A stretch of 61,511 bases of DNA from Roseiflexus sp. (GTDB lineage: Bacteria; Chloroflexota; Chloroflexia; Chloroflexales; Roseiflexaceae): positions 1-61,511 of the forward strand of contig JAGHYV010000018.1 of NCBI GenBank assembly GCA_017743475.1, written 5' to 3'. The notes beneath the pieces are model-generated. The model saw nothing but the letters and a program-made list of their open reading frames with translations. It ran no database searches and was not told the DNA's origin. Made by a program: the position numbers and the translations under genes. This document shows positions 1-44,614 of the stretch, in pieces (positions within the stretch are counted from its first letter, which is position 1; each line of letters opens with the position of its first letter).

Positions 1-1663
1 TGGCGGCGCAGCGGGCTGATTTCAGCAATTTCGGCTCGTTGAAGAGCACTGAAATACGAGACGGGAAGATGCGCTCTGGTCGGTCGTGCACCATTTCAGC
101 AATTTCGGCTCGTTGAAGAGCACTGAAATCGCGCGTTTGACTTTCTCGTACTGCTGCCGTCTGATAATTTCAGCAATTTCGGCTCGTTGAAGAGCACTGA
201 AATCTCAAATGTGTAACGCAAAAGGCAACCTGAAACGGGATTTCAGCAATTTCGGCTCGTTGAAGAGCACTGAAATGTTTGTGGCGCGGCGGCGGGCAGT
301 GGATTGATTTCCTGATTTCAGCAATTTCGGCTCGTTGAAGAGCACTGAAATCGTCGCCGTCGCCGGTAAACGCGCTTACCCAACTGGATTTCAGCAATTT
401 CGGCTCGTTGAAGAGCACTGAAATCTGCGCCGCGCCGTAGGCTCCGCGTTCGTCATCAAGATTTCAGCAATTTCGGCTCGTTGAAGAGCACTGAAATGCG
501 CGCCGCCGCGAGCGGCGTCGCGGGCCGGTTTCGATTTCAGCAATTTCGGCTCGTTGAAGAGCACTGAAATCGCGGCGCGGTTCGACCGTATTCCGCTGTT
601 CGTTAATTTCAGCAATTTCGGCTCGTTGAAGAGCACTGAAATACTGTGTGCTCGAAGAAAGGATTATTGGCATGGGAATTTCAGCAATTTCGGCTCGTTG
701 AAGAGCACTGAAATCGTGCCGACGTGGCGGTTCATTCAGCCAATCGCCAAATTTCAGCAATTTCGGCTCGTTGAAGAGCACTGAAATAACGCCCTCGCTT
801 TGCTGACCAGCGCAATGAGCAGGATTTCAGCAATTTCGGCTCGTTGAAGAGCACTGAAATATTGTTTGAATCGGCGGTTGCCGATCGGCTCGATAAAAGC
901 AATTTCGGCTCGTTGAAGAGCACTGAAATCGCGACCTGCACGCCCGCCTGCAGCGCGTGGCGCAGATTTCAGCAATTTCGGCTCGTTGAAGAGCACTGAA
1001 ATCGACGACGGGGTGATTGCGCTGGCGCTGGCGGCGTGATTTCAGCAATTTCGGCTCGTTGAAGAGCACTGAAATTCAGCCGTCCGCTGGCTGCGCGACC
1101 GGCGGGGGCGATTTCAGCAATTTCGGCTCGTTGAAGAGCACTGAAATGTGGTTATCAGCAGTGTCACAACACTTACTTCTCTTTTATTTCAGCAATTTCG
1201 GCTCGTTGAAGAGCACTGAAATGGCTGGGGCTGTTGCTGACGGCGCTCAACCTGCTGCATTTCAGCAATTTCGGCTCGTTGAAGAGCACTGAAACGGCGC
1301 ACCGCTCCACATCCGGCTCACGCTGCCGACAGATTTCAGCAATTTCGGCTCGTTGAAGAGCACTGAAACAGTCTACCCGCCCAATTAATCGCGGTTTGTA
1401 CATCAAATTTCAGCAATTTCGGCTCGTTGAAGAGCACTGAAACCCCGGAACGCAACCGTGCTGGAGCATGTCATGCCAAATTTCAGCAATTTCGGCTCGT
1501 TGAAGAGCACTGAAACTTTTGCAAATTCGCATAAAACCTGTTCCATAGTTCCTATTTCAGCAATTTCGGCTCGTTGAAGAGCACTGAAACCTTCCAGACG
1601 GCGAGACGGTGGAGCGAGTTTCTTCAGTTTCAGCAATTTTGGCTCGTCGAAGAGTGCCGATAC
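1..1663. CRISPR. CRISPR array, open at the left edge of the window
   Basis: A 37-bp repeat begins ATTTCAGCAATTTCGG and ends AAGAGCACTGAAAT or ...GAAAC, so its ends are inverted complements. Copies start at 19, 93, 167, 240, 315, 388, 461, 534, 606, 678, 751, 824, 893, 966, 1039, 1111, 1186, 1259, 1333, 1407, 1480 and 1554; a degenerate copy lies at 1627-1663. Spacers are 35-38 nt, except 32 nt before the copy at 893, which also has three changed bases (895-897). The first 17 copies end in T, the last five in C. Decay at the right end suggests that this is the leader-distal side and the leader is outside the window; the palindromic repeat ends leave the direction uncertain. No cas gene is present in the window. 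Confidence 0.98.
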
Positions 1664-31849: not shown

Positions 31850-32345
31850 GGGGCTGATGGCGATTGAGAAATAAATCCGCTATCCCGCGCAAGCCGTCGG
31901 GGTGAACCCCTCGGCTATCCAGGGCAAAGCCCGCCTGCGCGGGCTGGCGCGCGCCGTCGGGGTGAACCCCTCGGCTATACGGGGCAAGGCCCGTCTGCGC
32001 AGGCGCGACGTTGCGCATGCGGGCTGAAGCCCTCCCTGAGCGCGTGGAAGCCCCTGCGGGGCTATGGCGTGCTCACCGCTGAGAGCGATGGGCAGCATGA
32101 TTGAACCACATGCGTCCTGGGTGCGCGGGCGTCCCCGCCCGCATGCGGAGACTGCGGGCTAGTGGAGATTGAGAAATAAATCCGCTATCCCGCGCCAGCC
32201 ATCGGGCTGAAGCCCTCGGCTATCCAGGGCGAAGCCCGCCTGCGCAGGCTGGATTGGGGCACGGCGATGCTACGCCGAAGCGGCACCGTTAGGGCACGGC
32301 ATGCCGTGCCCCGACCTGCCGTACCCCGACCTGCAGCCGGAAACA
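31850..32345. repeat. Cluster of dispersed GC-rich repeats in the gap before def
   Basis: At least three related units of the type GAACCCCTCGGCTAT followed by GGGCRAAGCCCGCCTGCGC occur (near 31900, 31960 and 32210), two of them preceded by GATTGAGAAATAAATCCGC. A piece starting TGATTGAACCACATGCGTCC (32098) matches the elements at 37568 and 41847. CTGAAGCCCTCCCTGAGCGC (32025) recurs inverted near 55710. A perfect palindrome GGCACGGCATGCCGTGCC is at 32288. No gene is seen between 31823 and 32529. Confidence 0.75.
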
Positions 32346-32529: not shown

Positions 32530-33087
32530 TCACTCCGCTGCCGTCGGTGCCATCTCTTCGCTGTAATCCTTCAGTGTTGAGAGATCGCGGATGCGCTCGG
32601 TGAACAGAATGCCGTCCAGGTGATCGATCTCGTGCTGCAAGGCGCGCCCAAGCAATCCCGTTGCCCGGCGGATGCGCTGCCGCCGCCCGTTGAGATCGGT
32701 GTACTCGACGGTAACCCACGCTGCGCGTGGTACTTCACCGTACCAGCCCGGCAGGCTGAGGCACCCTTCCAGCCCCACGTCTTCCTGATCGCTGGCTTTA
32801 ATAATTTCGGGATTGATTAGCACAAAGTTTTGCTCCGGCGCCACTTCGATCTTTGAACCGTCGGGGCGCTCTTCGACCACCGGCGGGATTGAAATGACCG
32901 CCAGGCGCTGCAAAACGCCGATCTGGGGCGCTGCGAGTCCAACGCCGTTAGCGGCGCGCATCGTCTCGACCATATCGGCCACCAGTTGTTTCAGCGCCGG
33001 GTTTGGCAACCGCACCGGATGGCAGCGCGTCGTCAGGATTTTCTTGTCGTCGGGGTTATCAATACGCAAAATGCGGCGCAGCGCCAT
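32530..33087 (-). CDS. def: Peptide deformylase
   Basis: A 185-residue metalloenzyme that removes formyl groups from new protein N-termini. All three motifs are present: GVGLAAPQIG, EGCLSLPG with the Cys ligand, and HEIDHLDG (HEXXH). ATG 33087 was chosen because the residues before it do not resemble the family. The ISAs1 element inserted about 100 bp upstream. Confidence 0.97.
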   Translation of the reverse strand: MALRRILRIDNPDDKKILTTRCHPVRLPNPALKQLVADMVETMRAANGVGLAAPQIGVLQRLAVISIPPVVEERPDGSKIEVAPEQNFVLINPEIIKASDQEDVGLEGCLSLPGWYGEVPRAAWVTVEYTDLNGRRQRIRRATGLLGRALQHEIDHLDGILFTERIRDLSTLKDYSEEMAPTAAE

Positions 33088-33185
33088 AGCGTCCTGTCCT
33101 CCACAGAAGTTGCAGCACTCTCGATTGCGGTGCATTGGAACAATTATAGCATGGCGGCGCGAAGCGTGGACTTGCCGCAACGCCG

Positions 33186-34367
33186 TAGGGCTTTTCAGGG
33201 TTTTCATCTTTTGGTATCATGAGCGTCGCTTCGCAGCAACGATAGGGAGGGACACGACGATGAATGTCATCCAGGCGCTCAAGACGATCCCCGACCCGCG
33301 CAGTCGCCGCGGCCGCCAATATCCGCTCTTCGGCCTCCTCGCCATCGTGCTGCTCGCGGCCATGCACGGGGAACGGTCGTTACGCGGGATGTGGCTGTGG
33401 GCGCGTGCGCGCCAGGACGACCTGCTCACCCATCCGGCGCTCGGCTTGCGCGCCGTGCGACGGATTCCGAGCCTGGCGACGTTCTGGTATGCGGTGCGCA
33501 CGACGCCCGCCGGGGAACTGGAGCGGGCGCTGGCCCCCCTGCTGTCGGCGGAACGCGATCTGGCCCTTGATGGGAAATGGCTGCGTGGGAGCAAGCGGGA
33601 CGCAACCGACGCCCTTCGGGTGGTGACCCTCGCCGGGGTGACGGCGGGACAGGTCTGGGCGCAACGCGCCGTGCCGGACGGCGACGAATTGGCGGCGGCG
33701 CTGGCCCTCCTGGAAGCGTTCCCGCTTGAGGGCAAGGTCATCAGCGCCGATGCCGGTCTGCTGCGTCCGCCCTTCGTCCAGAACGCGGTGGAAAAAAAGG
33801 GGGTTACATTGGGCTCATCAAGCCCAATCAGCCCGACCTCCATCAGGCCCTCGTGAACTGGATCGGGATGCCGGACGCGCGGGCGCCAGATCGCGTGCAG
33901 ACGGTCAAACGCCACGGACGGGTCGAGCGCCGGTCGCTGTGGATGGCGCCGTGCGGCGACCTCAGCCCGTATCTGGAACAAGCGTGCGCCTGGCCCGGCG
34001 CGCAGTGGTGCGGCTGGATCGAACGGACGCGCTGGCGCGCCGGACGGGAAGAAACGCACTGCCACGTCTGGATTGCCGGCGCTGCCTTTCCCTGGCCCTT
34101 GACCCCAGACGACGCGCTCGCCCGGCTGCAGGCCCACTGGACGATTGAAAACCGGGTCTTTCGGGTGCGTGATGTCACGTATGATGAGGACCGCTTGCAC
34201 GGACGAATGATCGGGCATGGGTTGAGCAGTATTCGGAACGGCGCCATCACGCTCCTGCGTCAACTGGACTATCGGTACATTCCCGATGCGCAACGGGCGA
34301 TTGCCGCGCAGCCCGCGTTGGCGTTCGCTCTCCTGGGAGGATAAGATGAGAACTTTGAAAAGCCCTA
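33186..34367 (+). mobile_element. ISAs1-family insertion sequence, 1182 bp, with 8-bp target duplication
   Basis: The ends are imperfect inverted repeats: left TAGGGCTTTTCAGGGTTTTC (33186 on), right (read inward) TAGGGCTTTTCAAAGTTCTC, both leading into CATCTT. The 8-bp CAACGCCG flanks both sides (33178-33185 and 34368-34375), a perfect target-site duplication, so the insertion is recent. It carries one transposase gene in two frames. It sits between def (divergent) and the lysine promoter, whose -35 box begins 17 bp after the element ends. Confidence 0.92.
33260..34344 (+). CDS. ISAs1-family transposase, two frames joined by a -1 shift
   Basis: The first frame (33260-33856) reads MNVIQALKTIPDPRSRRGRQ, the usual ISAs1 opening, then LALDGKWLRGSK with the first catalytic Asp and VISADAGLL with the second. 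At 33792-33799 the sequence A AAA AAG, read in frame as GAA AAA AAG, is a classic slippery heptamer. A -1 slip there continues EKKGGYIGLIKPNQPDLHQA and then HWTIENRVFRVRDVTYDEDR with the catalytic Glu, to the stop at 34344. The joined product is 361 residues, normal for the family. It may be programmed frameshifting, transcriptional slippage on A7, or a simple one-base deletion. A GGGAGGG ribosome-binding site precedes ATG 33260. Confidence 0.88.
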
Positions 34368-34384
34368 CAACGCCGCGCCCACAC

Positions 34385-34413
34385 TTGACAGCCCGGCGTC
34401 CTAGTGGTACACT
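34385..34413 (+). promoter_or_regulatory. Promoter of the lysine biosynthesis block
   Basis: TTGACA at 34385-34390, a 17-bp spacer and TACACT at 34408-34413. Transcription would start near 34420, about 28 nt before the leader-peptide ATG. Confidence 0.8.
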
Positions 34414-34447
34414 GCGCAATGCATTATCGCACAAGTTAGAGTTCGGT

Positions 34448-34510
34448 ATGCATTCCCTGTTCGCCAAGCAGGTCAAGCAGAGCAAACAGCCGGACTCCTG
34501 GTCTGGTTAG
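34448..34510 (+). CDS. Leader peptide with clustered Lys codons, probable lysine attenuator
   Basis: A 20-codon frame from ATG 34448 to TAG 34508-34510. Lys codons are at positions 7, 10 and 13 (34466, 34475, 34484) in the segment AKQVKQSKQ. The last four codons (tcc tgg tct ggt) overlap the first strand of the antiterminator. It fits a ribosome-stalling sensor of charged tRNA-Lys. The ribosome-binding site is weak (AGTTAGAG upstream). Inference from position and structure; there is no homology to lean on. Confidence 0.65.
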   Translation: MHSLFAKQVKQSKQPDSWSG

Positions 34511-34561
34511 GCTCGCTTGTCCCGCAGTGTGGTAGACGGGCGCCCGCTTCGCCAGACCAGG
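34497..34561 (+). promoter_or_regulatory. Antiterminator hairpin of the lysine attenuator
   Basis: CCTGGTCTGG at 34497-34506 is perfectly complementary to CCAGACCAGG at 34552-34561, which lies in the loop of the downstream terminator. A ribosome stalled at the Lys codons (34466-34486) would leave 34497-34506 free to pair, blocking the terminator; one that finishes at the TAG would cover it and let the terminator form. Confidence 0.7.
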
Positions 34562-34580
34562 TGAAGCGGGCTTTCTGTTT
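34542..34580 (+). terminator. Intrinsic terminator in the leader of the lysine block
   Basis: GCCCGCTTC at 34542-34550 pairs with GAAGCGGGC at 34563-34571 (9 bp, perfect), followed by TTTCTGTTT. It ends 18 bp before the homoaconitase start codon, so it must be conditional for the gene to be transcribed from the upstream promoter. Confidence 0.85.
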
Positions 34581-34598
34581 GCGTCTCAGGAGGGTATC

Positions 34599-35864
34599 GT
34601 GGGGCAAACGCTTGCAGAGCAGATCCTTTCGCACGCTGCCGGGCGTCCGGTCGCTGCCGGCGAGAATATCGTCGCCAGGATTGATCTGGCGATGATGCAC
34701 GACAGCATCTCACCGAGCATCATCAAAGTCCTGCACCACGAATTGGGTGCCGAACGGGTGTGGGATCGCGACCGTGTGGCAGTGGTGGTGGACCACGTTG
34801 CACCGGCGGCGACGATCCAGAATGCTGAGCATCAACTGGCGTTGCGACGGTGGGTGCGTCAGCAGCAGATCACGCATTTCTTCGATGTCGGGCGCGGCAT
34901 CTCGCATCCGGTGCTGATCGAAGAGGGGCTGGCGCGTCCCGGTATGCTGATTATCGGCAGCGACTCGCACTCAACAGCGTATGGCGCGGTCGGGGCGTTT
35001 GGCACCGGCATGGGTTCCACCGATATGGCGCTGGCGCTGGCGACCGGGCAGACGTGGCTGCGTGTGCCGGAGACGGTGCGCATTCTGGCGCGTGGGCGGT
35101 TTCAACCCGGCGTCGGCGCGAAGGATTTGGGGCTGCGCGTAGCGCGTCTGATCGGTGCCGATGGCGCGACCTATCAGTCAGTTGAGTGGCACGGCGTCGA
35201 GGAATTGAGCATCGGCGAACGGATGACGCTTGCTACGCTCTCTGTTGAAATCGGTGCGAAGGCGGGGATCATTCCGCCCGTCGGTCCCGGTTGGGAGGAA
35301 CACGCAAACCGTCGCGGCATCACCGTCCCGTCATGGTTGCGCGTCGAAGAAGGAGCGCGCTACAGTCGCACCGTGGAGGTCGATCTCAACACCCTTGAGC
35401 CACAGGTGAGCGTGCCGCACTTCGTGGACAATGTGCGCGACCTGAGCGATCTAGGGCGTGTTGATGTGGATGTGGTCTATATCGGTACCTGCACGAACGG
35501 TCACGCAAATGACCTTGCTGCTGCTGCGCGCATCCTAAAGGGGCGCAAAGTGGCGCGCGGCGTGCGCCTCCTAGTCGTGCCAGCGTCGAGCGAGGCGTTG
35601 CAGCAGGCGACAGCGGATGGAACGCTGGCGATACTCCTTGAAGCCGGCGCAGCCATTGGCACCCCCGGATGCGGCGCGTGTATTGGTCGGCACATGGGCG
35701 TCCTGGCGCCCGGCGAGGTCTGCCTGTTCACCGGCAACCGCAACTTCCGCGGGCGCATGGGATCGCCAGAGGCGCAGATCTACCTGGCGTCGCCTGAAGT
35801 TGCGGCGGCGACAGCAGTGCTGGGGTATATCGCTCACCCAGCGGAGGTTATGGATGGGCGGTAA
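34599..35864 (+). CDS. lysT: Homoaconitase / 3-isopropylmalate dehydratase family, large subunit
   Basis: A 421-residue iron-sulfur enzyme subunit from a GTG start behind AGGAGGG. Family features: DSHSTAYGAVGAFGTGMGST, IGTCTNGHANDL with one cluster Cys, and GTPGCGACIGRHMG with the other two. In this locus it most likely converts homocitrate to homoisocitrate in the alpha-aminoadipate route to lysine. The leucine-pathway role (LeuC) cannot be excluded from sequence alone. Expression is probably set by the attenuator upstream. Its small subunit lies 2 kb downstream beyond a PLP enzyme and a repeat region. Confidence 0.88.
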   Translation: MGQTLAEQILSHAAGRPVAAGENIVARIDLAMMHDSISPSIIKVLHHELGAERVWDRDRVAVVVDHVAPAATIQNAEHQLALRRWVRQQQITHFFDVGRGISHPVLIEEGLARPGMLIIGSDSHSTAYGAVGAFGTGMGSTDMALALATGQTWLRVPETVRILARGRFQPGVGAKDLGLRVARLIGADGATYQSVEWHGVEELSIGERMTLATLSVEIGAKAGIIPPVGPGWEEHANRRGITVPSWLRVEEGARYSRTVEVDLNTLEPQVSVPHFVDNVRDLSDLGRVDVDVVYIGTCTNGHANDLAAAARILKGRKVARGVRLLVVPASSEALQQATADGTLAILLEAGAAIGTPGCGACIGRHMGVLAPGEVCLFTGNRNFRGRMGSPEAQIYLASPEVAAATAVLGYIAHPAEVMDGR

Positions 35865-35937
35865 TGGGTTGCCATCGCCGCGATCAGTGCCCTGACGATT
35901 GGCAGTCTGTCAGGCTCAGGGTAGAGGGAGACGACCG

Positions 35938-37080
35938 GTGCATCTCGAAACAATCTCCATCCACGCCGGGCAGGAGATCGATCCGGCAACCGGATCGGTC
36001 ATCCCGCCGATCTACCTGACGACAACCTTCGAGCGTGCGCCCGATGGGAGTTTTCCGCACGGGTACATCTACACCCGCAACGGCAACCCCAATCGCGCAA
36101 TGCTCGAAACCTGTCTGGCGACGCTTGAAGGCGGCACGACCTGCGTGGCGTTCAGTTCGGGGCTTGCGGCGGCAATGAGCATCTTTCAGGCGTTGCGTCC
36201 CGGTGACCACGTCATTGCGCCCGACGATGCCTACCACGGGGTGACGCGATTGTTGCGCGACATCATGGCGCCGTGGGGTCTGGAGTATACCCGTGTCGAT
36301 ATGCGCGATCCGCAGAACGTTGCGGCTGCGCTGCGCCCGAATACGCGCCTGGTCTGGATCGAAACTCCTTCCAACCCGCTGCTCAAAATTGCTGATATTG
36401 CTGCGATTGCAAACATTGCCCATCAGGCAGGCGCGCTATGTGCGGTCGATAACACCTGGGCAACGCCAGTGCAGCAGCGTCCGCTCGAACTCGGCGCGGA
36501 TATGGTAATGCACGCAACAACCAAATATATCAGCGGGCACAGCGATGTGCTTGGCGGTGCAGTCGTTTTTCGCGAGAACGATGCGTTTGCGGAAAGGGTG
36601 CGCTTCTTGCAGATCAACGGCAGGGCGGTTCCGTCACCGTTCGACTGCTGGTTGACATTGCGCGGTATTCAGACGCTGACGTACCGGGTGCGCGCCCACG
36701 CTGCCAGTGCAATGCGGGTCGCCCGTTTTCTGGCAACCCATCCGCGCATCGAGCGTGTCCACTATCCGGGGCTGGAAACCCATCCCGGTCATGCGGTCGC
36801 CACCCGGCAGATGCGCAGTTTCGGCAGCATGATATCGATTGAGGTTCAGGGCGGCGAAGCGGCGGCAATGGCAGTCGCAGCGCGGGTGCGGATCATCACC
36901 CGCGCCACGAGTCTGGGCGGCGTCGAAAGCCTGATCGAACATCGCGCATCGGTTGAGGGACCGGAGAGCGTTACCCCGCCCAACCTGCTGCGTATCTCGG
37001 TCGGTCTTGAGCATCCTGATGACCTGATCGCCGACCTGACGCAGGCGCTGGAGGTTGATGGCGTTTCGCCGCAGAGGTGA
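35938..37080 (+). CDS. PLP-dependent Cys/Met metabolism enzyme (cystathionine gamma-synthase/lyase type)
   Basis: A 380-residue fold-type I PLP enzyme of the transsulfuration family. Visible: the N-terminal GSVIPPIYLTTTFE with YTRNGNPNR, the cofactor region SSGLAAAMSIF, VDNTWATPVQQRPLELGADM and the PLP lysine in HATTKYISGHSDVLGG. GTG 35938 (VHLETISIHAGQ) was taken as start; upstream codons look non-coding. Which reaction it catalyses cannot be told from sequence. It lies 73 bp after lysT and is probably on the same transcript, although it has no known step in the aminoadipate pathway. Confidence 0.88.
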   Translation: MHLETISIHAGQEIDPATGSVIPPIYLTTTFERAPDGSFPHGYIYTRNGNPNRAMLETCLATLEGGTTCVAFSSGLAAAMSIFQALRPGDHVIAPDDAYHGVTRLLRDIMAPWGLEYTRVDMRDPQNVAAALRPNTRLVWIETPSNPLLKIADIAAIANIAHQAGALCAVDNTWATPVQQRPLELGADMVMHATTKYISGHSDVLGGAVVFRENDAFAERVRFLQINGRAVPSPFDCWLTLRGIQTLTYRVRAHAASAMRVARFLATHPRIERVHYPGLETHPGHAVATRQMRSFGSMISIEVQGGEAAAMAVAARVRIITRATSLGGVESLIEHRASVEGPESVTPPNLLRISVGLEHPDDLIADLTQALEVDGVSPQR

Positions 37081-37094
37081 ATGGGTTCTTATAT

Positions 37095-37500
37095 AAATCC
37101 GGTCTGGTCTGCGCAGGCGGGCTTCGCACTGTGGGGCCGAGGGTTTATCGTGGCCGATAGCCGATAGCCGATAGCCGATGGTCGATAGGGTCGCCATTGG
37201 AGTTCGCGTTCCGCGCAGGCGGGCTTCACCCTGGCTAGCTGAGGGCTTATGGTCTTTGTGTCATTATTCCGCTCTAGCCCGCGCAGGCGGGCTTCGCCCT
37301 GGAAGCCGGAAGAGAACACGGATCGGCACGGATGCTACGGATCAGCACGGATGAAGGTTTGCCGGGAATCGCCCGCGCAGACGGGCGTCGCCCTAGATAG
37401 CCGAGGGCTTATGATCTTTATTAAGTCCGGTATAGCCTGCGCAGGCGCGCTTTGCCCAGTATAGTCGAGGGCTTCAGCCCCACGGCAAGAGGCGAATACC
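37095..37500. repeat. Dispersed repeats with short CCGATAG heptamer array
   Basis: Four units of about TGCGCAGGCGGGCTTCGCC followed by a [CG]CCGAGGGCTT box lie near 37111, 37205, 37280 and 37375. A short CCGATAG tandem array lies at 37141-37176. The stretch after it (GAGTTCGCGTTCCGC ... GGGCTTATGGTCTTTG) recurs inverted at about 42140-42215. No gene is seen in the gap 37081-37854. Confidence 0.75.
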
Positions 37501-37544
37501 GGTTTATACTCTTAATTTTCATTAGCCCCACGGCTCATTCGGCA

Positions 37545-37772
37545 TAGCGGATTATAGCAGTGCACAGAATGATTGAACCACCTGCATCCTGGGTGCGCGG
37601 GCGTCCTCGCCCGCATGCGGCGACTGCATCGCTCCGTGTCCTCCACATCTCCGCGTGCATCAGAGCGGCTCACGCGGAGGCGCGGAGGCGCGGCGCTGGG
37701 GAGCGCAGCGGATGCGAGCGCCTGGTGCGACATGGCAGACCCGGGCAAGGGTCAACGTATCTGAGAAGTGCT
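37545..37772 (+). repeat. About 215-bp dispersed repeat, copy A, upstream of lysU
   Basis: From CAGAATGATTGAACCACCTG to GGTCAACGTATCTGAGAA this matches 41834-42047 in the same orientation, with roughly 20 differences by eye. It ends about 80 bp before the homoaconitase small-subunit gene. It contains the hairpin-prone GTGCGCGGGCGTCC/CGCCCGCATGCGG and GGAGGCGCGGAGGCGCGGCG. A related fragment is at 32098. Confidence 0.85.
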
Positions 37773-37854
37773 GTAAATTCTCAATATAAGCCCGACGGCA
37801 CGAGGCGAATACCGGTTTCTATTCTCATCGATGAGATGCAGAAAGGACAGAACA

Positions 37855-38355
37855 ATGGCTCGAATCTGGCGTTTTGGCGCCAATGTCAATACCGATCAGA
37901 TCGTTCCCGGTCGTTACGCACCCTATATGCTGAAGAGCGAGGAAGAACTGCGTAACTACCCATTCATTGAGGCACGCCCGGAGTTTGCTTCGACCGTGCG
38001 CCCTGGCGACCTGATCATTGCTGGTCCGAACTTCGGGTGTGGCTCATCGCGCGAATACGCGCCGCTGGCACTCAAGATGGTCGGCATCGGAGCGATTATC
38101 GCGCCGCTCTTTGCGCGCATTTTCTACCGCAACGCGCTCAACCTGGGCATTCCGCTGTTCGAGGCGGATCTGACTAATCAACTGGAGGATGGGCAGGAAG
38201 TTGAGTTCAACGTCGAGATCGGTGTTATCATTGCCGATGGGCGCACCATTCAGTTGCCGCCGCCGCCTGAATGGATGCGCGAGGTCTGGCGCGAGAGCGG
38301 CATCATTCCGTTTTACCGCAAGTATCGACGCTTCCCTGGAGCCGTAACGGTATGA
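37855..38355 (+). CDS. lysU: Homoaconitase / isopropylmalate dehydratase family, small subunit
   Basis: A 166-residue swivel-domain subunit. Features: GANVNTDQIVPGRY, GPNFGCGSSREYAPLALK and the substrate-loop region LFARIFYRNALNLGIPL. Pairs with the large subunit at 34599. ATG 37855 follows AAAGGAC; the eight codons upstream of it are non-coding. Its stop overlaps the homoisocitrate dehydrogenase start (ATGA). Confidence 0.9.
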   Translation: MARIWRFGANVNTDQIVPGRYAPYMLKSEEELRNYPFIEARPEFASTVRPGDLIIAGPNFGCGSSREYAPLALKMVGIGAIIAPLFARIFYRNALNLGIPLFEADLTNQLEDGQEVEFNVEIGVIIADGRTIQLPPPPEWMREVWRESGIIPFYRKYRRFPGAVTV

Positions 38356-39440
38356 ACGCAGCGCCGTACACTATTCTGGTCATCCCCGGCGACGGCATTG
38401 GGCGTGAAGTGATCCCGGCAGCGGTCGCAGTCTTGCGCGCTACCGGCTTGCCCTTGCACTTCGAGAACGCCGATGCCGGATGGGAATGTTTCCAGCGCCA
38501 GGGGGAGGCGCTCCCGCTGGCCACGCTTGCCGCTGCGCGGACGGCAGACGCGATCCTGTTTGGCGCCGTCGCATCGCCCATCTACCCGGTCGTCGGGTAT
38601 CGCAGCCCGATTGTCCGGTTGCGCCGCGAACTCGATCTGTACGCCAATATCCGCCCAGTCTTCGACGACCTGCCGGAGAATGGCAGCAACCCTCAGCGGC
38701 GGAAGATTGATCTCGTCGTGGTGCGCGAGAACACGGAAGATGTGTACGCCGGACGCGAACGTGTCGAGGACGATGGGGCGACTGCGATTGCCGAGCGTGT
38801 CATCACCCGGCGTGCCAGCGCACGCATCATGCGCGTCGCCTGCGACCTTGCGCGCGCCCGGCGCAGCGCGCGTGGCGGATCAGACGCGCCGCCAGGAAAG
38901 GTGACCATCGTTCACAAAGCGAATGTGTTGCGCGAAACATGCGGACTGTTCCGCTCCGTCGCGCTTGAGGTCGCACAGGCGTACCCCGATCTCCAGATCG
39001 ATGAGATGCTGGTCGATACCTGCGCACTCCAACTCGCCACCCGACCTGAACGGTTCGATGTTATCGTCACCACCAACCTGTTCGGCGATATTCTGTCGGA
39101 CGTTGCATGCGCCTGGGGTGGCGGATTGGGTCTGGCACCATCGGCGAACCTGGGTGAACGGCATGCGCTGTTCGAGCCAGTGCACGGCGCAGCACCTGAT
39201 ATTGCCGGGAAAGGTATTGCCAATCCGCTGGCGGCGATTGGATGCACTGCGCTGCTTCTCGACCATCTTGCCGGTCGTGCACCGGCAGACCTGGCTTCCG
39301 CCATGCGCGGTTGGAGCGCATGCATCCAGCGCGCCATTCGCCACGTGCGCGCTGCTGGTCCACACACGCCCGACCTGGGTGGCATCGCAACCACCACCGA
39401 TGTTACCAACGTGGTACTTTCACATATGTTTAATACCTGA
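38352..39440 (+). CDS. Homoisocitrate dehydrogenase
   Basis: A 362-residue beta-decarboxylating dehydrogenase of the isocitrate/isopropylmalate family, oxidising homoisocitrate to 2-oxoadipate with NAD+. Motifs: IPGDGIGREVIPAA, the substrate loop VGYRSPIVRLRRELDLYANI with the RxxxxRRxLDLYAN pattern, VVRENTEDVYAG, VHKANVLR, DTCALQLA and NLFGDILSD. The lys-gene context favours homoisocitrate over isopropylmalate. Overlaps lysU by 4 bp and precedes lysW by 15 bp. Confidence 0.87.
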   Translation: MNAAPYTILVIPGDGIGREVIPAAVAVLRATGLPLHFENADAGWECFQRQGEALPLATLAAARTADAILFGAVASPIYPVVGYRSPIVRLRRELDLYANIRPVFDDLPENGSNPQRRKIDLVVVRENTEDVYAGRERVEDDGATAIAERVITRRASARIMRVACDLARARRSARGGSDAPPGKVTIVHKANVLRETCGLFRSVALEVAQAYPDLQIDEMLVDTCALQLATRPERFDVIVTTNLFGDILSDVACAWGGGLGLAPSANLGERHALFEPVHGAAPDIAGKGIANPLAAIGCTALLLDHLAGRAPADLASAMRGWSACIQRAIRHVRAAGPHTPDLGGIATTTDVTNVVLSHMFNT

Positions 39441-39455
39441 GAAAGGATCATCGTT

Positions 39456-39623
39456 ATGCGCGCCACATGCCCGGAGTGCGAAGCCGAAATCACCCTTCCC
39501 GAAGGCACAGTCGAAGGCGAGATCCTCACATGTCCCGACTGCGCTGCCGAACTGGAAGTCATCAGTATCAATCCGCCAGAACTGGCGCTTGCGCCGGAAG
39601 TTGAAGAGGACTGGGGAGAGTAA
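39456..39623 (+). CDS. lysW: Alpha-aminoadipate/amino-group carrier protein LysW
   Basis: A 55-residue acidic protein. A zinc site is formed by C5-PE-C8 and C26-PD-C29, and the C-terminus is the diagnostic EDWGE, whose last Glu side chain is coupled to the amino group of alpha-aminoadipate. All intermediates from LysX to LysJ are carried on it. It lies 15 bp after the homoisocitrate dehydrogenase gene and 3 bp before lysX. Confidence 0.97.
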
Positions 39624-39626
39624 CGT

Positions 39627-40475
39627 ATGCGAGTTGGCGTTCTTTGCTCACGCATCCGTGTCGAAGAGAAACTACTCTTCGCGGAACTGGAACGACGCGG
39701 CATCGCCTATGAACGTATCGACGACAATGATGTCGTTTTCGACCTCAATGAAGGACGCTACGAGTACGATGTCGTGCTCGAACGAAGCATTCACCATTCA
39801 CGCGCGCTCTATGCGCTGAAGGTCTTCAACGACGCTGGCGTTCCAACGGTCAATACCGCGTATGTCGCCGACATCTGCGGCGACAAGTTCAAGACTACCC
39901 AGGCGCTGATCCGCGCTGGCGTGCCGACGCCGCGCACCCGGATGGCGTTTACGCCGGAATCGGCGCTGCGCGCTATCGAAGACCTCGGCTATCCGGTCGT
40001 TCTCAAACCTGCCATTGGCTCCTGGGGACGCCTGATCGCTAAGGTCAACGACCGCGAGGCAGCGGAAGCATTGCTCGAACACAAACAGATCCTCGGTTCA
40101 TACCATCATTCGATCTTCTACATTCAGGAGTACATTCCCAAACCGCACCGACGCGACATCCGCGCCTTCGTCGTCGGCGACGAGTGCATCTGCGCGATTT
40201 ACCGCACGAGTGAGCACTGGATCACCAACACTGCGCGCGGCGGGATCGCAAGTGCTTGCCCGGTGACGCCAGCACTGGCAGACCTGTGCGTCAGCGCAGC
40301 GTATGCCGTTGGTGGCGGAGTGGTGGCTATCGACGTGCTCGAAGCACCCGATGGCAGGCTGCTGGTGAACGAAGTGAACTACACCATGGAGTTTCGCAAC
40401 AGCATCGCACCAACCGGCGTAGACATCCCGGCGCGGATCATCGATTACACACTGGCGGCGGCAAGGAAGGGATAA
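39627..40475 (+). CDS. lysX: Alpha-aminoadipate-LysW ligase LysX
   Basis: A 282-residue ATP-grasp ligase that joins alpha-aminoadipate to the C-terminal Glu of LysW. It starts [20 protein letters not shown]-grasp features are [39 protein letters not shown] and the metal-binding [14 protein letters not shown]. It starts 3 bp after the lysW stop. Confidence 0.95.
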
Positions 40476-40492
40476 CCGGGAGGAGTGTTCGC

Positions 40493-41539
40493 ATGAGCGT
40501 CCGTGTCTCTATCGTCGGTGGCAGCGGCTACGTCGGCGGTGAACTCCTGCGGTTGCTCCTCTTTCATCCGCTGGTAACCGTCGCGCAGGCGACCTCCGAG
40601 CGTCTGGCGGGCAAGCCGATCACCGTTGCCCATCCGAACCTGCGTGGCATTCCCGCAGCGCGCGAGGTGCAGTTTACCTCGCAGGATCGACTGACGCCGT
40701 GCGATGTCCTGTTTCTGGCGCTGCCGCACGGCGACGCTGCCCGCGCTATCGACCGCTTTGCGCAGCTTGCACCAAAGATTATTGATTGTTCCGCCGATTT
40801 TCGTCTGCGCGATCCGGCGCTGTACGCTCGCTGGTACGGCGAAACGCACCCGGCGCCACACTGGCTGGAGCGGTTCGTGTACGGTCTGCCGGAACTGCAC
40901 CGCGACGCTATCCGCACCGCCAGGTACGTCAGCGGCGTCGGATGCAACGCGACTGCGACCAACCTGGCGTTGCTGCCGCTGGTGCGTGCCGGACTGATCG
41001 ACCCTACGCGCGATGTGATTGTCGAAGTGAAAGTCGGCTCGTCGGAGGGTGGCGCGCAGCCGGGTGAATCATCGCACCACCCGGAGCGGAGTGGGGCAGT
41101 GCGCTCGTTTGCGCCCGTCGGTCACCGGCACACTGCCGAGGTCGTGCAGGAACTCGGGCTATCGCGGGTGCACCTGTCGATCACGAGCGTCGAGTTAGTG
41201 CGTGGTGCGCTTGCCACTGCGCACGCATTCGCCGGCGCACCGGTGAGCGAAAAAGACCTGTGGCGCGCATTCCGCGCTACGTATGGCAGTGAGCCGTTCG
41301 TGCGCATTGTGCGTGAAAAGCAGGGGGTGTACCGCCTGCCTGAACCGAAAATCCTGGCGGGAAGCAACTACGCCGATGTCGGGTTCGCCGTTGATGAAGA
41401 GACCGGACGGATCGTAGCGATCTGCGCCATCGACAACCTGATGAAAGGCGCAGCCGGAACCGCTGTCCAATGTATGAACCTGATGTGCGGCTTCGACGAG
41501 CGTACCGGTCTGGAGTTCCCCGGATTACATCCTATTTAG
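40493..41539 (+). CDS. lysY: [LysW]-aminoadipyl phosphate reductase (ArgC family)
   Basis: A 348-residue NADPH-dependent reductase, the third LysW-bound step. It begins VSIVGGSGYVGGELLRLLL and has the catalytic cysteine at about 151 (YVSGVGCNATATNLALLPLV), with VHLSITSVELVRG and GSNYADVGFAVDEE towards the C-terminus. ATG 40493 follows GGGAGGAG. Its TAG stop directly abuts a heptanucleotide tandem array. An ArgC role in arginine synthesis is less likely given its position next to lysWX. Confidence 0.93.
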   Translation: MSVRVSIVGGSGYVGGELLRLLLFHPLVTVAQATSERLAGKPITVAHPNLRGIPAAREVQFTSQDRLTPCDVLFLALPHGDAARAIDRFAQLAPKIIDCSADFRLRDPALYARWYGETHPAPHWLERFVYGLPELHRDAIRTARYVSGVGCNATATNLALLPLVRAGLIDPTRDVIVEVKVGSSEGGAQPGESSHHPERSGAVRSFAPVGHRHTAEVVQELGLSRVHLSITSVELVRGALATAHAFAGAPVSEKDLWRAFRATYGSEPFVRIVREKQGVYRLPEPKILAGSNYADVGFAVDEETGRIVAICAIDNLMKGAAGTAVQCMNLMCGFDERTGLEFPGLHPI

Positions 41540-41540
41540 G

Positions 41541-41790
41541 AGAACCAAGAACCGAGAACCGAGAACCAAGAACCAAGAACCAAGAACCAAGAACCGAGGA
41601 CTGAGGACTGAGGACTGAGAACTGAGGACTGAGAACTGAGGACTGAGGACTGAGGACTGAGAACTGAGGACTGAGGACTAAGGACTGAGAACTGAGAACT
41701 GAGAACTGAGAACTGAGAACTGAGAACCGGATGTTGTGCAGAGACCGGTCGTGCGTCTAGCTGGCGGTTGATGAAGAATGAGGAAATAGA
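41541..41790 (+). repeat. Heptanucleotide tandem array plus flanking element, copy 1
   Basis: About 26 seven-base units (GAACCAA, GAACTGA, GGACTGA variants) run from 41541 to 41728, starting right after the lysY stop. They continue into GATGTTGTGCAGAGACCGG and GGCGGTTGATGAAGAAT (41730-41778). The entire arrangement recurs inverted at 44990-45160. Confidence 0.9.
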
Positions 41791-41814
41791 CTGATATTCG
41801 TCTCGTGCCGTCGG

Positions 41815-42047
41815 GATCGTATTGAGCATTATAGCGGTGCGCAGAATGATTGAACCACCTGCATCCTGGGTGCGCGGGCGTCCCTGCCCGCATGCGGCGA
41901 CTGCATCCCTCCGCGTCTTCCACATCTCCGCATGCATTGGGCCGGCTCACGCGGAGGTGCGGAGGCGCGGCGCTGGGGAGCGCAGCGGATGCGCGCGCCT
42001 GGTGCGACACGGCAGATCCAGACAAGGGTCAACGTATCTGAGAACTG
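41815..42047 (+). repeat. About 215-bp dispersed repeat, copy B, upstream of the homocitrate synthase-like gene
   Basis: Same sequence and orientation as 37555-37772: CAGAATGATTGAACCACCTG to GGTCAACGTATCTGAGAA. Together with the heptamer arrays it fills the gap 41540-42302; no gene is seen there. Confidence 0.85.
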
Positions 42048-42059
42048 CTATGATCCGGT

Positions 42060-42292
42060 ACGCGCCGCGTGCCGTCAGGCTCAAGCCCTCGGCTATACAA
42101 GGCAACGCCCGCCTGCGTAGGCTATGGCTAAATAATTTCTCAAAGACCATAAGCCCTCGGCTATGGAACGCGAACGCACCTGCACGGAACGCGAACTTCA
42201 ACGGTGACCCTATCGTCTATCGCCTATCGCCTATCGTCTATCGCCTATCGCCTATCACCATCACCTATCGCCTATCACCTATCACCTATCGC
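42060..42292. repeat. Inverted partner of the 37.1-kb repeat and CTATCGC tandem array
   Basis: Twelve seven-base units CTATCGC/CTATCAC/CTATCGT at 42210-42292 end 11 bp before the next start codon. The sequence just before them (AACGCGAACTTCAACGG, ...CAAAGACCATAAGCCCTCGG) is the inverted copy of 37169-37256. Confidence 0.85.
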
Positions 42293-42302
42293 CTAGAGAC
42301 AT

Positions 42303-43814
42303 ATGGACATGTCACCAATACCAGAGTTCTTGCGCAGCGAAAACCCGGCACAGCCGCGTTACCACGAAGCGATCGAACTGTTTGCCCTATTCGATTATCT
42401 GAAAGCCGTGCGCTGGGGCGTCTTCAGCATCCGCGAGTCCCTCCAGGCAGTCGGCGAATGCCGCGACGGGACGCTTCAGGGATTCCACCTGACCGTCGAT
42501 GAAGCATGGGAAGCCGTGCGCGGCATGGACTCGCTCGGAGTCGGGGTGATCGAACTTCCGGCATTTCCCGCCAACCCACCCGGTCAGGCGTTCAACCGCC
42601 GTCTGCTGGAGCGCGCGGCAGCTCATGGGTTGACAACTACCTTCGCCGCACACGCGCGCTGCGTGATGTCCGACATCCGCACTGCTGCCGAAACCGGATT
42701 CCGTCGCCTCCACCTCTACATTGGCGTTAGTCCGATCAAGCAGGCAACGGTGCGCGCAAACGCAACCCAACTTGCCGACAAAGCGTTCGAGTCCATTCGC
42801 CTGGCGCGCGAACTCGGTTTCGACTGTGTGCGCATCAGCACCGAAGACGCCTACCGCACGCCGCTGGAGGACTACCGCGCCTTCTATGAGCGCTTGCAGG
42901 ATCACCTGATCCGTCACAACCTGCACGTTGACGGTATCGGCATCCCCGACACCGTTGGCGTCGGTACAATCGACGACCTTGGCGACCGGATCGCCATTCT
43001 GCAGCATATTGGCATCCGATTTGCCTTTCTCGAATGTCACATCCACAATGACATCGGGCACGCCGATCGGTTATACGTTGATACGTTGCTCCTCTGCATG
43101 CGGCTTGGCATTATAATGCTTCCCGATTTCTCGATCCTGGGGATTGGTGAGCGCAACGGCACGATCGGTCTCAGTTCGCTAATTGAAGCTATCTACCGGC
43201 GTTTGCTGCTCCTCTACCCGCGGTCGATGCCCGCCATCCGTCAGGCAGTGCGCGAGAAGCTTGGCGTCCTGCCCGACGGTGAACTGTTCGTCAACCGCTA
43301 CCGTGACCTCGATTCATTCTTCTACCGGATTCTGGCGCGCAGCGGCTTTGTGTTCGACCGAAGCCCGTTTTCATCGAACACTGAGTACGATGGTTCCGGT
43401 GTCCATGCCGACACCACCCTGCGCGCGTTTCGTCTGGCGCTGGAAAACGGCTATGAAGGGCAGCGGGCGATTGATCTGGGCAACAGCGCCTACGCCGGGG
43501 CGCTGCCGCCCTACGACATGCCGCTGCGCACGCCGGTGCTTGCCTGCTTCGGATGCGGCAAGAGCAACGTGCGCTTCTGGCGCGAACGGGAACACCTGGT
43601 CCTGCGTCATCCCGACGATATTCGCCTCAGAATTGCGCCCTACGCCGATGATCTTGCCGAAGAGAGCCAGCACATCCCAACCGACGAGGCAACCGCCGAT
43701 GAACTCGCTGCGCGGCTGATCCGCTGCGCCAGCGTGCGCGAAGGCGGGATCACCCATCACCAGGCAATGGAGATCGTCCGACTCTTCTACCGTCCAAAGG
43801 AGGCATGCGCATGA
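42303..43814 (+). CDS. Divergent homocitrate synthase-like protein (DRE-TIM metallolyase fold)
   Basis: A 503-residue protein. The barrel end has the metal-binding HIHNDIGHADRLYVDT and the LNGIGER-like ILGIGERNGTIGLSSLIEA, both typical of homocitrate/isopropylmalate synthases. The N-terminal signature that normally reads D-x-T-L-R-[ED]-G-x-Q is here RDGTLQGFHLT, with the catalytic Arg replaced by Gln. The C-terminal part (about 400-500) has a CFGCGKSN ribbon-like piece. By position between lysY and lysZ, and because no other homocitrate synthase is in the locus, it is the likely first enzyme of the pathway, but this is inference. ATG 42303 sits 11 bp after a heptamer array; ATG 42309 is an alternative. 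Confidence 0.7.
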   Translation: MDMSPIPEFLRSENPAQPRYHEAIELFALFDYLKAVRWGVFSIRESLQAVGECRDGTLQGFHLTVDEAWEAVRGMDSLGVGVIELPAFPANPPGQAFNRRLLERAAAHGLTTTFAAHARCVMSDIRTAAETGFRRLHLYIGVSPIKQATVRANATQLADKAFESIRLARELGFDCVRISTEDAYRTPLEDYRAFYERLQDHLIRHNLHVDGIGIPDTVGVGTIDDLGDRIAILQHIGIRFAFLECHIHNDIGHADRLYVDTLLLCMRLGIIMLPDFSILGIGERNGTIGLSSLIEAIYRRLLLLYPRSMPAIRQAVREKLGVLPDGELFVNRYRDLDSFFYRILARSGFVFDRSPFSSNTEYDGSGVHADTTLRAFRLALENGYEGQRAIDLGNSAYAGALPPYDMPLRTPVLACFGCGKSNVRFWREREHLVLRHPDDIRLRIAPYADDLAEESQHIPTDEATADELAARLIRCASVREGGITHHQAMEIVRLFYRPKEACA

Positions 43815-44614
43815 TCGTCGTCAAAGTCGGCGGTGGCGCCGGCATCGCCTATGACACACTCTGCAACGACCTGGCGGCGCTGACACGCACCGGTCAGCGT
43901 TTCGTGCTGGTGCACGGCGGCTCCCACGAAACCAACACCCTTGCCGAACGGCTCGGACATCCACCTCGCTTCGTGACATCACCCTCCGGGTACACCAGCC
44001 GTTACACTGACCGTGTGACCCTGGAACTCTTTCTGATGGCGACCGCCGGCAAAGTCAACAAACTGATCGTTGAGCGTCTCCAGCGATTGGGAGTGAACGC
44101 CATCGGTCTCTCCGGTCTCGACGGGCGCATCCTTCAGGGACAGCGCAAGGCAGTCATTCGCATCGTCGAAAACGGCAAACAGAAAATCCTGCGTGACGAC
44201 TGGACCGGAACGGTCGAACAGGTCAACACTGACCTGCTGCGTCTGCTGCTGGACGCCGGACTGTTTCCGGTCATTGCACCGATTGCCGTCAGCACTATCG
44301 GCGAAGCGCTCAATGTTGACGGCGACCGTGCAGCGGCGGCGATTGCGGCAGCGCTTGGCGCCGACACGCTCGTGCTGCTGACCAACGTTCCCGGTCTGTT
44401 GCGCGCCTTTCCCGACGAAAGCACCCTTGTGCGGCACATTCCGCGCGCCGATGTCGAAGCGTACCTGCCGCTAGCGCAGGGGCGGATGAAGAAGAAAATC
44501 CTGGGCGCATCCGAAGCACTCAGCCAGGGCGTGGGGCGGGTCATCCTCGGTGACGCGCGCGTATCCGAACCGGTCTCACACGCGCTTGCAGGCGAAGGCA
44601 CGGTCATCGCATGA
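43811..44614 (+). CDS. lysZ: [LysW]-aminoadipate kinase
   Basis: A 267-residue amino acid kinase phosphorylating LysW-bound aminoadipate before LysY acts. Features: IVVKVGGGAGIAYD, LVHGGSHETNTLAERLG, YTSRYTDRVTLELFLMATAG, NVDGDRAAAAIAAALGADTL and GRMKKKILGASEAL. ATG 43811 was preferred to 43805 because AAAGGAGG ends only one base before the latter. It overlaps the end of the upstream gene by 4 bp. Confidence 0.95.
   Translation: MIVVKVGGGAGIAYDTLCNDLAALTRTGQRFVLVHGGSHETNTLAERLGHPPRFVTSPSGYTSRYTDRVTLELFLMATAGKVNKLIVERLQRLGVNAIGLSGLDGRILQGQRKAVIRIVENGKQKILRDDWTGTVEQVNTDLLRLLLDAGLFPVIAPIAVSTIGEALNVDGDRAAAAIAAALGADTLVLLTNVPGLLRAFPDESTLVRHIPRADVEAYLPLAQGRMKKKILGASEALSQGVGRVILGDARVSEPVSHALAGEGTVIA

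Follow-up and report, generated by a model that had tools for sequence, protein, structure and literature searches.

A Putative Lysine Attenuator Upstream of lysT in Roseiflexus and Its Relatives with Other Sensor Codons in Chloroflexota

Our results make it highly probable that the leader upstream of lysT in Roseiflexus sp. is a ribosome-mediated transcription attenuator of the trp/his type, which senses charged lysyl-tRNA. We observe the anatomy of the leader, its conservation, the covariation of its helices and a match between its codons and the downstream pathway. Translation of the open reading frame (ORF), termination, the response to lysine and kinetic control are inferred. The leader lies in a stretch of 61,511 nucleotides (contig JAGHYV010000018.1), which we call the window.

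A lysine attenuator had been proposed here from the window alone. The comparative evidence supports this reading, but its scope was too narrow: the leader appears to be one member of a phylum-wide family with Lys, Arg, Pro and Gln versions. We think it likely, with some reservations, that Chloroflexota carry a single homologous and modular scaffold, consisting of protector, antiterminator and terminator strands and a fixed ...SG-stop end, and that the sensed amino acid was switched several times by exchanging codons of the ORF. Lys versions would serve lysT, homocitrate synthase (HCS) or lysX, Arg versions argG, argJ or argC, Pro versions proS operons and Gln versions LysE-type transporters.

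Anatomy of the lysT Leader

The strands of the window leader have the four-strand layout of classical attenuators (Table 1). The promoter, described as near consensus in the original prediction, indeed scores 10/12, and shuffled sequences would be expected to give 0.2 such sites. The 20-codon ORF with three Lys codons also stands. The Lys codons are codons 7, 10 and 13 (34466-34468, 34475-34477 and 34484-34486) and span seven positions, not the eight that had been counted. Most related leaders have a fourth Lys (KK, codons 13-14), which is changed to Gln in the window genome. The Shine-Dalgarno match of the ORF is weak.

Strands 2 and 3 are perfectly complementary over 10 bp, which confirms the proposed hairpin that overlaps the last codons of the ORF. 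The terminator stem can be extended to 12 bp (GCCCGCTTCGCC/GGTGAAGCGGGC). Hence, the antiterminator strand, correctly placed in the terminator loop before, also reaches into both arms. The proposed mutual exclusion of the two helices is supported by steric reasoning, because a pseudoknot linker of 1 nt cannot span a 10-bp helix. An element missing from the earlier description is the protector strand CCGGAC. The hairpin that it can form with strand 2 would become longer if CAAGCAGAGC, a run that spans the Lys codons, paired with GCTCGCTTG just 3' of the stop, which is possible. Overall, the window leader folds more stably than shuffled sequences (z = -4.5). The gene behind it had been called a homoaconitase in a lysine locus, and both parts of that claim agree with the NCBIfam matches of lysT and with the LysW-pathway genes downstream.

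Table 1. Positions of the leader elements and of the lysine locus in the window.
Feature	Position	Strand	Remarks
Sigma-70-type promoter	34385..34413	+	-35 TTGACA (34385-34390), 17-bp spacer, -10 TACACT (34408-34413)
Leader peptide ORF	34448..34510	+	MHSLFAKQVKQSKQPDSWSG and stop; 20 codons; ATG 34448, TAG 34508-34510
Strand 1, protector	34490..34495	+	CCGGAC; codons 15-16; can pair with GGTCTGG (hairpin 1:2)
Strand 2, antiterminator 5' arm	34497..34506	+	CCTGGTCTGG; last ORF codons; based on complementarity, conservation and covariation
Conserved post-stop segment	34511..34523	+	GCTCGCTTGTCC; potential pairing with CAAGCAGAGC across the Lys codons
Predicted intrinsic terminator	34542..34580	+	stem 34542-34571, 9-12 bp, then TTTCTGTTT
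Strand 3, antiterminator 3' arm	34552..34561	+	CCAGACCAGG; in terminator loop and inner arms
lysT, homoaconitase large subunit	34599..35864	+	GTG start; TIGR01343 homoaconitate hydratase family and TIGR02086, above cut-off
Remaining lysine locus	35899..44614	+	common transcript for all genes not established
PLP enzyme	35899-37080	+	lysine locus
lysU	37831-38355	+	lysine locus
Isopropylmalate/isohomocitrate dehydrogenase-family gene	38352-39440	+	probably homoisocitrate dehydrogenase
lysX	39627-40475	+	lysine locus
lysY/argC	40496-41539	+	lysine locus
Homocitrate/isopropylmalate-synthase-like protein	42303-43814	+	lysine locus
lysZ	43805-44614	+	lysine locus

Conservation and Covariation

The leader stands upstream of lysT in every Roseiflexus genome that has this gene; in one genome without it, the leader lies at the end of a contig. 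A DNA similarity search recovers it from all six genomes of the genus and from nine others, which belong to other genera of the family and to one other family. These homologues show an ORF of exactly 20 codons, the ...SG-stop end and the Lys codons, kept in all but one. A covariance model trained on 14 Lys-type leaders (R1) matches 63 of the 158 genomes of the class, and among the matches listed all fall in the order Chloroflexales. The genes behind these Lys-type leaders are lysT, homocitrate synthase or lysX-lysY (the latter as second copies in two genomes). Promoters scoring at least 9/12 precede 84 of 104 related leaders, compared with 2.8 expected from shuffles. Because the leader is conserved across many genera, a chance origin can be excluded. 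It should be noted that phylogenetic independence was handled only at the level of the genus.

In the window genome, R1 and the second model R2 (see below) have only one match, the lysT leader itself. Weak matches elsewhere that lacked the scaffold or a sensible downstream gene were counted as chance; eleven matches in nine genomes, together with some others, were set aside in this way. One R1 match is unexplained (L102, G067:C528:4040-4168; 5.6e-7). It lies upstream of gltX, and its ORF (MNTFFTWQNERRIYQRWGCE and stop) lacks the strand-2 motif.

The original prediction named compensatory pairing in both stems as a test of itself, and this is what we find. Across 64 leaders, 92% of the cells of the antiterminator (2:3) and terminator helices are paired. 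The figure for shuffles is 82.7%, and sliding the helices gives no more than 49%. In 12 of the 16 pairs both sides have changed, and not one of 500 shuffles reaches any of the measures. The terminator stem contributes changes on both sides in eight of nine pairs. For helix 2:3 the figure is four of seven, with 94.9% of cells paired. The compensatory changes in the antiterminator (G-C to C-G, U-A to C-G at two positions and G-C to U-A) are seen in unrelated genera, with five genera as examples. The protector helix 1:2 is paired in 87% of cells, but its covariation is no greater than that of shuffles. This is in part because the leaders of one family (f2) are shifted by one base in that block of columns.

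One could also argue that the hairpin is merely the terminator of an upstream transcript, or the remains of an insertion sequence (IS), next to a fortuitous ORF. An IS-like element does end only 17 bp before the -35 of the leader promoter. The closest relative (G002) has no such element and keeps the leader at 93% identity, from which it follows that the leader is not derived from the IS. An IS-borne leader is also ruled out by the position of the element, which ends before the promoter. Furthermore, this reading is refuted by the conservation and covariation of the leader in dozens of genera; we give it practically no credence.

The IS-like element itself (about 33185-34368) has imperfect 20-bp inverted ends (GTAGGGCTTTTCA...) and lies between the leader promoter and def, which is on the opposite strand. 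We take it to be ISAs1-like. Its transposase-like ORFs (32813-33856 and 33853-34344, the second without a Pfam match) differ in frame, and the element is therefore probably broken.

Sensor Codons Follow the Pathway

R1 was trained on Lys leaders, and it also matches second copies that have Arg codons instead of Lys codons, for example MNRPHATPRRLRRTQPDQTSG and MHRQTYNLHSTPRRRRTKPDTTSG, each followed by a stop. These copies precede argininosuccinate synthase (argG) or a phosphatase-argJ pair. Many more leaders were found with R2, a covariance model from which the sensor codons were left out. Downstream genes were assigned by sequence motifs and spot-checked with NCBIfam.

The codons follow the pathway closely. 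In the 52 lysine-pathway leaders (27 genera), Lys accounts for 28.6% and Arg for 7.4% of the 13 codons before the scaffold; in the 32 arginine-pathway leaders (16 genera), the shares are 1.0% for Lys and 36.1% for Arg. All 52 lysine-pathway leaders have at least two Lys in these codons (two to four each), so the expectation that homologues keep both the ORF and its Lys codons is met. At least three Arg are found in all 32 arginine-pathway leaders. No association as strong appears in 20,000 permutations of the labels of the 84 leaders, and the same is true if only one leader is kept per genus and class. In genomes that carry both a Lys and an Arg leader, the codon matches the pathway in 25 of 25 cases (13 genera). 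There is good support for homology between the Lys and the Arg versions found within the order.

The sequence that is conserved is that of the RNA and not that of the peptide, because family f2 (KKSRTIASG and KKGRTSGSG, each followed by a stop) keeps the strand CCGGAC and reads it in a different frame, and because in two genomes the stop comes several codons later. This bears on the idea of a nascent-peptide arrest leader of the TnaC/SecM type, in which the peptide KQxKRxKKPDxxSG would itself stall the ribosome as a reaction to lysine or to a different signal. Within Roseiflexaceae and Chloroflexaceae the peptide is strongly conserved, as one would expect of an arrest sequence. Yet RNA strands 1 and 2 determine its PDxxSG end, the frame change in f2 speaks against arrest, and the peptides of the Arg, Pro and Gln versions are unrelated although the RNA is kept. 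We consider an arrest peptide very unlikely.

Another possibility is that the RNA binds a metabolite or a tRNA, as a lysine riboswitch or a tRNA-Lys T-box, and that the short ORF is incidental. A terminator/antiterminator pair in front of an amino-acid gene would suit such an RNA, and T-box RNAs have been reported from Chloroflexi (PMC3766115). However, neither the lysine riboswitch (RF00168) nor the T-box (RF00230) has a covariance-model match in the window at gathering scores or in ten related loci at E values up to 1, and both readings were dropped for lack of Rfam support. An aptamer would also leave unexplained why the identity of the ORF codons tracks the downstream pathway. It is extremely unlikely that this explanation is correct.

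It is less clear whether the attenuator we propose senses lysine alone. Gln codons (KQ pairs) could count as well, so that the supply of Lys and Gln would be integrated. Most leaders of Roseiflexaceae and Chloroflexaceae retain a Gln next to the first Lys, and Gln-rich leaders on the same scaffold stand before LysE-type genes. The CAG codon, however, is also part of the AAGCAGGTCAAGC RNA run, which is able to pair downstream. Lys leaders of family f2 (KKSASKK) have no Gln among their Lys codons, and the codons nearest to the stop are Lys. Integration of both signals remains conceivable, but we regard it as unlikely.

Versions Outside the Class

Beyond the class, a sample of 400 genomes of the phylum was searched with strict filters; absences in this search therefore mean little. 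R2 matches are weaker here (E values from 8e-9 to 1e-5). Arg-codon leaders precede argC in two genomes. In six of the six cases examined, Pro-codon leaders (MLMNPNPSPRMCNSSRSG and stop) are followed by proline-tRNA ligase, either immediately or as part of a short operon. It is likely, but more weakly supported than within the order, that the Pro and argC versions are homologous and not convergent.

The Pro leaders begin with MNPNPSPR and have three Pro codons (six loci), and the operon, where one lies behind them, comprises a small conserved gene, a LOG-like protein and proS. The Pro-codon leader may be an attenuator that senses proline-tRNA and controls the synthetase for this tRNA. The scaffold also occurs with Gln-rich codons (for example ...SSPQQQQNLGFVSDRRSG and stop) before a LysE-type translocator in several families; ten loci bear on this gene. 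Within one genus (g8) the codons range from Gln-rich to Lys-rich before the same LysE-type gene. The Gln-rich leaders suggest a glutamine-linked transporter.

Proposed Mechanism

How would such a leader work? Transcription of the lysT leader is predicted to start about 28 nt before the ORF, which would be translated behind RNA polymerase. If lysine is plentiful, the ribosome would sit at the stop and cover strand 2. Strand 3 would be left free, the terminator could form and the transcript would stop before lysT. If charged tRNA-Lys is short, the ribosome would stall at the last Lys codon (34484) and cover strand 1 instead. Strand 2 would then be open to pair with strand 3 before the 3' arm of the terminator exists, and RNA polymerase could enter lysT. 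Without any translation, strand 2 and the segment just 3' of it may be taken up by strand 1 and the Lys-codon run, which would favour termination. Leaders in which this scaffold carries Arg, Pro or Gln codons would serve other genes.

The geometry fits this proposal if we assume a ribosome footprint from -15 to +15 around the P-site. Stalled at the last Lys codon, a ribosome hides strand 1 but most of strand 2 stays accessible; at the stop it covers strand 2. Of the 49 Lys leaders modelled, all except one have the stop seven to eight codons after the last Lys codon. In transcripts that still lack strand 4, the 3' arm of the terminator, the mean predicted probability of the antiterminator in these leaders is 0.98 when the ribosome is stalled, 0.0 when it is at the stop and 0.5 when there is none. 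The value of 0.0 is directly imposed by the assumed footprint.

Equilibrium folding of the full-length leader gives a mixed picture. For the window leader, the predicted terminator probability is 0.01 in the stalled state versus 0.79 at the stop. Over the 49 Lys leaders, stalling makes the terminator less likely in 26 and more likely in 10. Being only partly consistent over homologues, this model was abandoned as proof of switching and replaced by folding before the 3' arm of the terminator is made. Kinetic control must therefore be assumed, and in these models the decision between terminator and antiterminator is probably kinetic.

Comparison with Known Attenuators

Leader-peptide attenuation is a classical mechanism. 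A leader-peptide attenuator was reportedly described for the lysine gene cluster of Thermus thermophilus by Tsubouchi and colleagues in the Journal of Biological Chemistry in 2005. It reportedly shares with our leader a peptide with Lys codons and, as inferred here, attenuation before LysW-pathway genes. It belongs to a different phylum, and the Chloroflexota scaffold GGTCTGG...TAG...GCTTG...CCAGACC with its Arg, Pro and Gln versions is not known to be part of the Thermus description. If the inferred response holds, leader-peptide control of lysine synthesis by the LysW pathway would extend beyond Thermus.

Enterobacterial attenuators (the His, Leu, Thr and Trp leaders of Rfam) also have a short ORF rich in codons of the end product, overlapping and exclusive RNA strands and an intrinsic terminator. 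By analogy, the Chloroflexota leaders probably follow the same working principle. The corresponding covariance models (RF00506, RF00512, RF00513 and RF00514) have no match in the window or in ten related loci. Two differences stand out. In Chloroflexota most of the strand-3 motif falls within the loop and the inner arms of the terminator, and one sequence-conserved scaffold is shared across amino-acid specificities.

Amino-acid attenuators are usually regarded as separate inventions for each operon. Here, leaders across the phylum share one recognisable scaffold but differ in their sensor codons, and a Lys and an Arg version occur together in 25 genomes. This makes the evolution of leader-peptide specificity, by codon swaps on a shared scaffold, directly testable. 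The covariance model could also be used as it stands to annotate amino-acid genes, and transporters whose substrate is unknown, in Chloroflexota.

Comparative genomics has predicted leader-peptide attenuators outside Proteobacteria before, in Actinobacteria (PMC1262725) and, for His, in Firmicutes (PMC9413887), in taxa and genes different from ours. A survey of cis-regulatory RNAs in Chloroflexi considers Rfam families only (PMC3766115). No Rfam family matches the leader in the window or its relatives at ten related loci, and our literature searches found no description of such a leader in Chloroflexota. Hence, we regard it as a new family of a known mechanism: new is the attenuator family on one scaffold with exchangeable sensor codons.

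Other Observations in the Window

The PLP enzyme within the lysine locus belongs to the cystathionine gamma-synthase type. Genus g8, for which no close lysT turned up, has a homologue with 57% identity; it follows a leader with Lys or Gln codons and is accompanied by a LysE-type translocator. Six loci bear on this enzyme. The arrangement in g8 hints at a lysine-linked role of the cystathionine gamma-synthase-type enzyme.

At one end of the window (19-1590) there is a CRISPR array of about 22 repeats (Rfam CRISPR-DR19). Single isolated matches to CRISPR-DR28 (31923-31946 and 37275-37298) lie inside repeated intergenic sequence and are probably dispersed repeats, not arrays.
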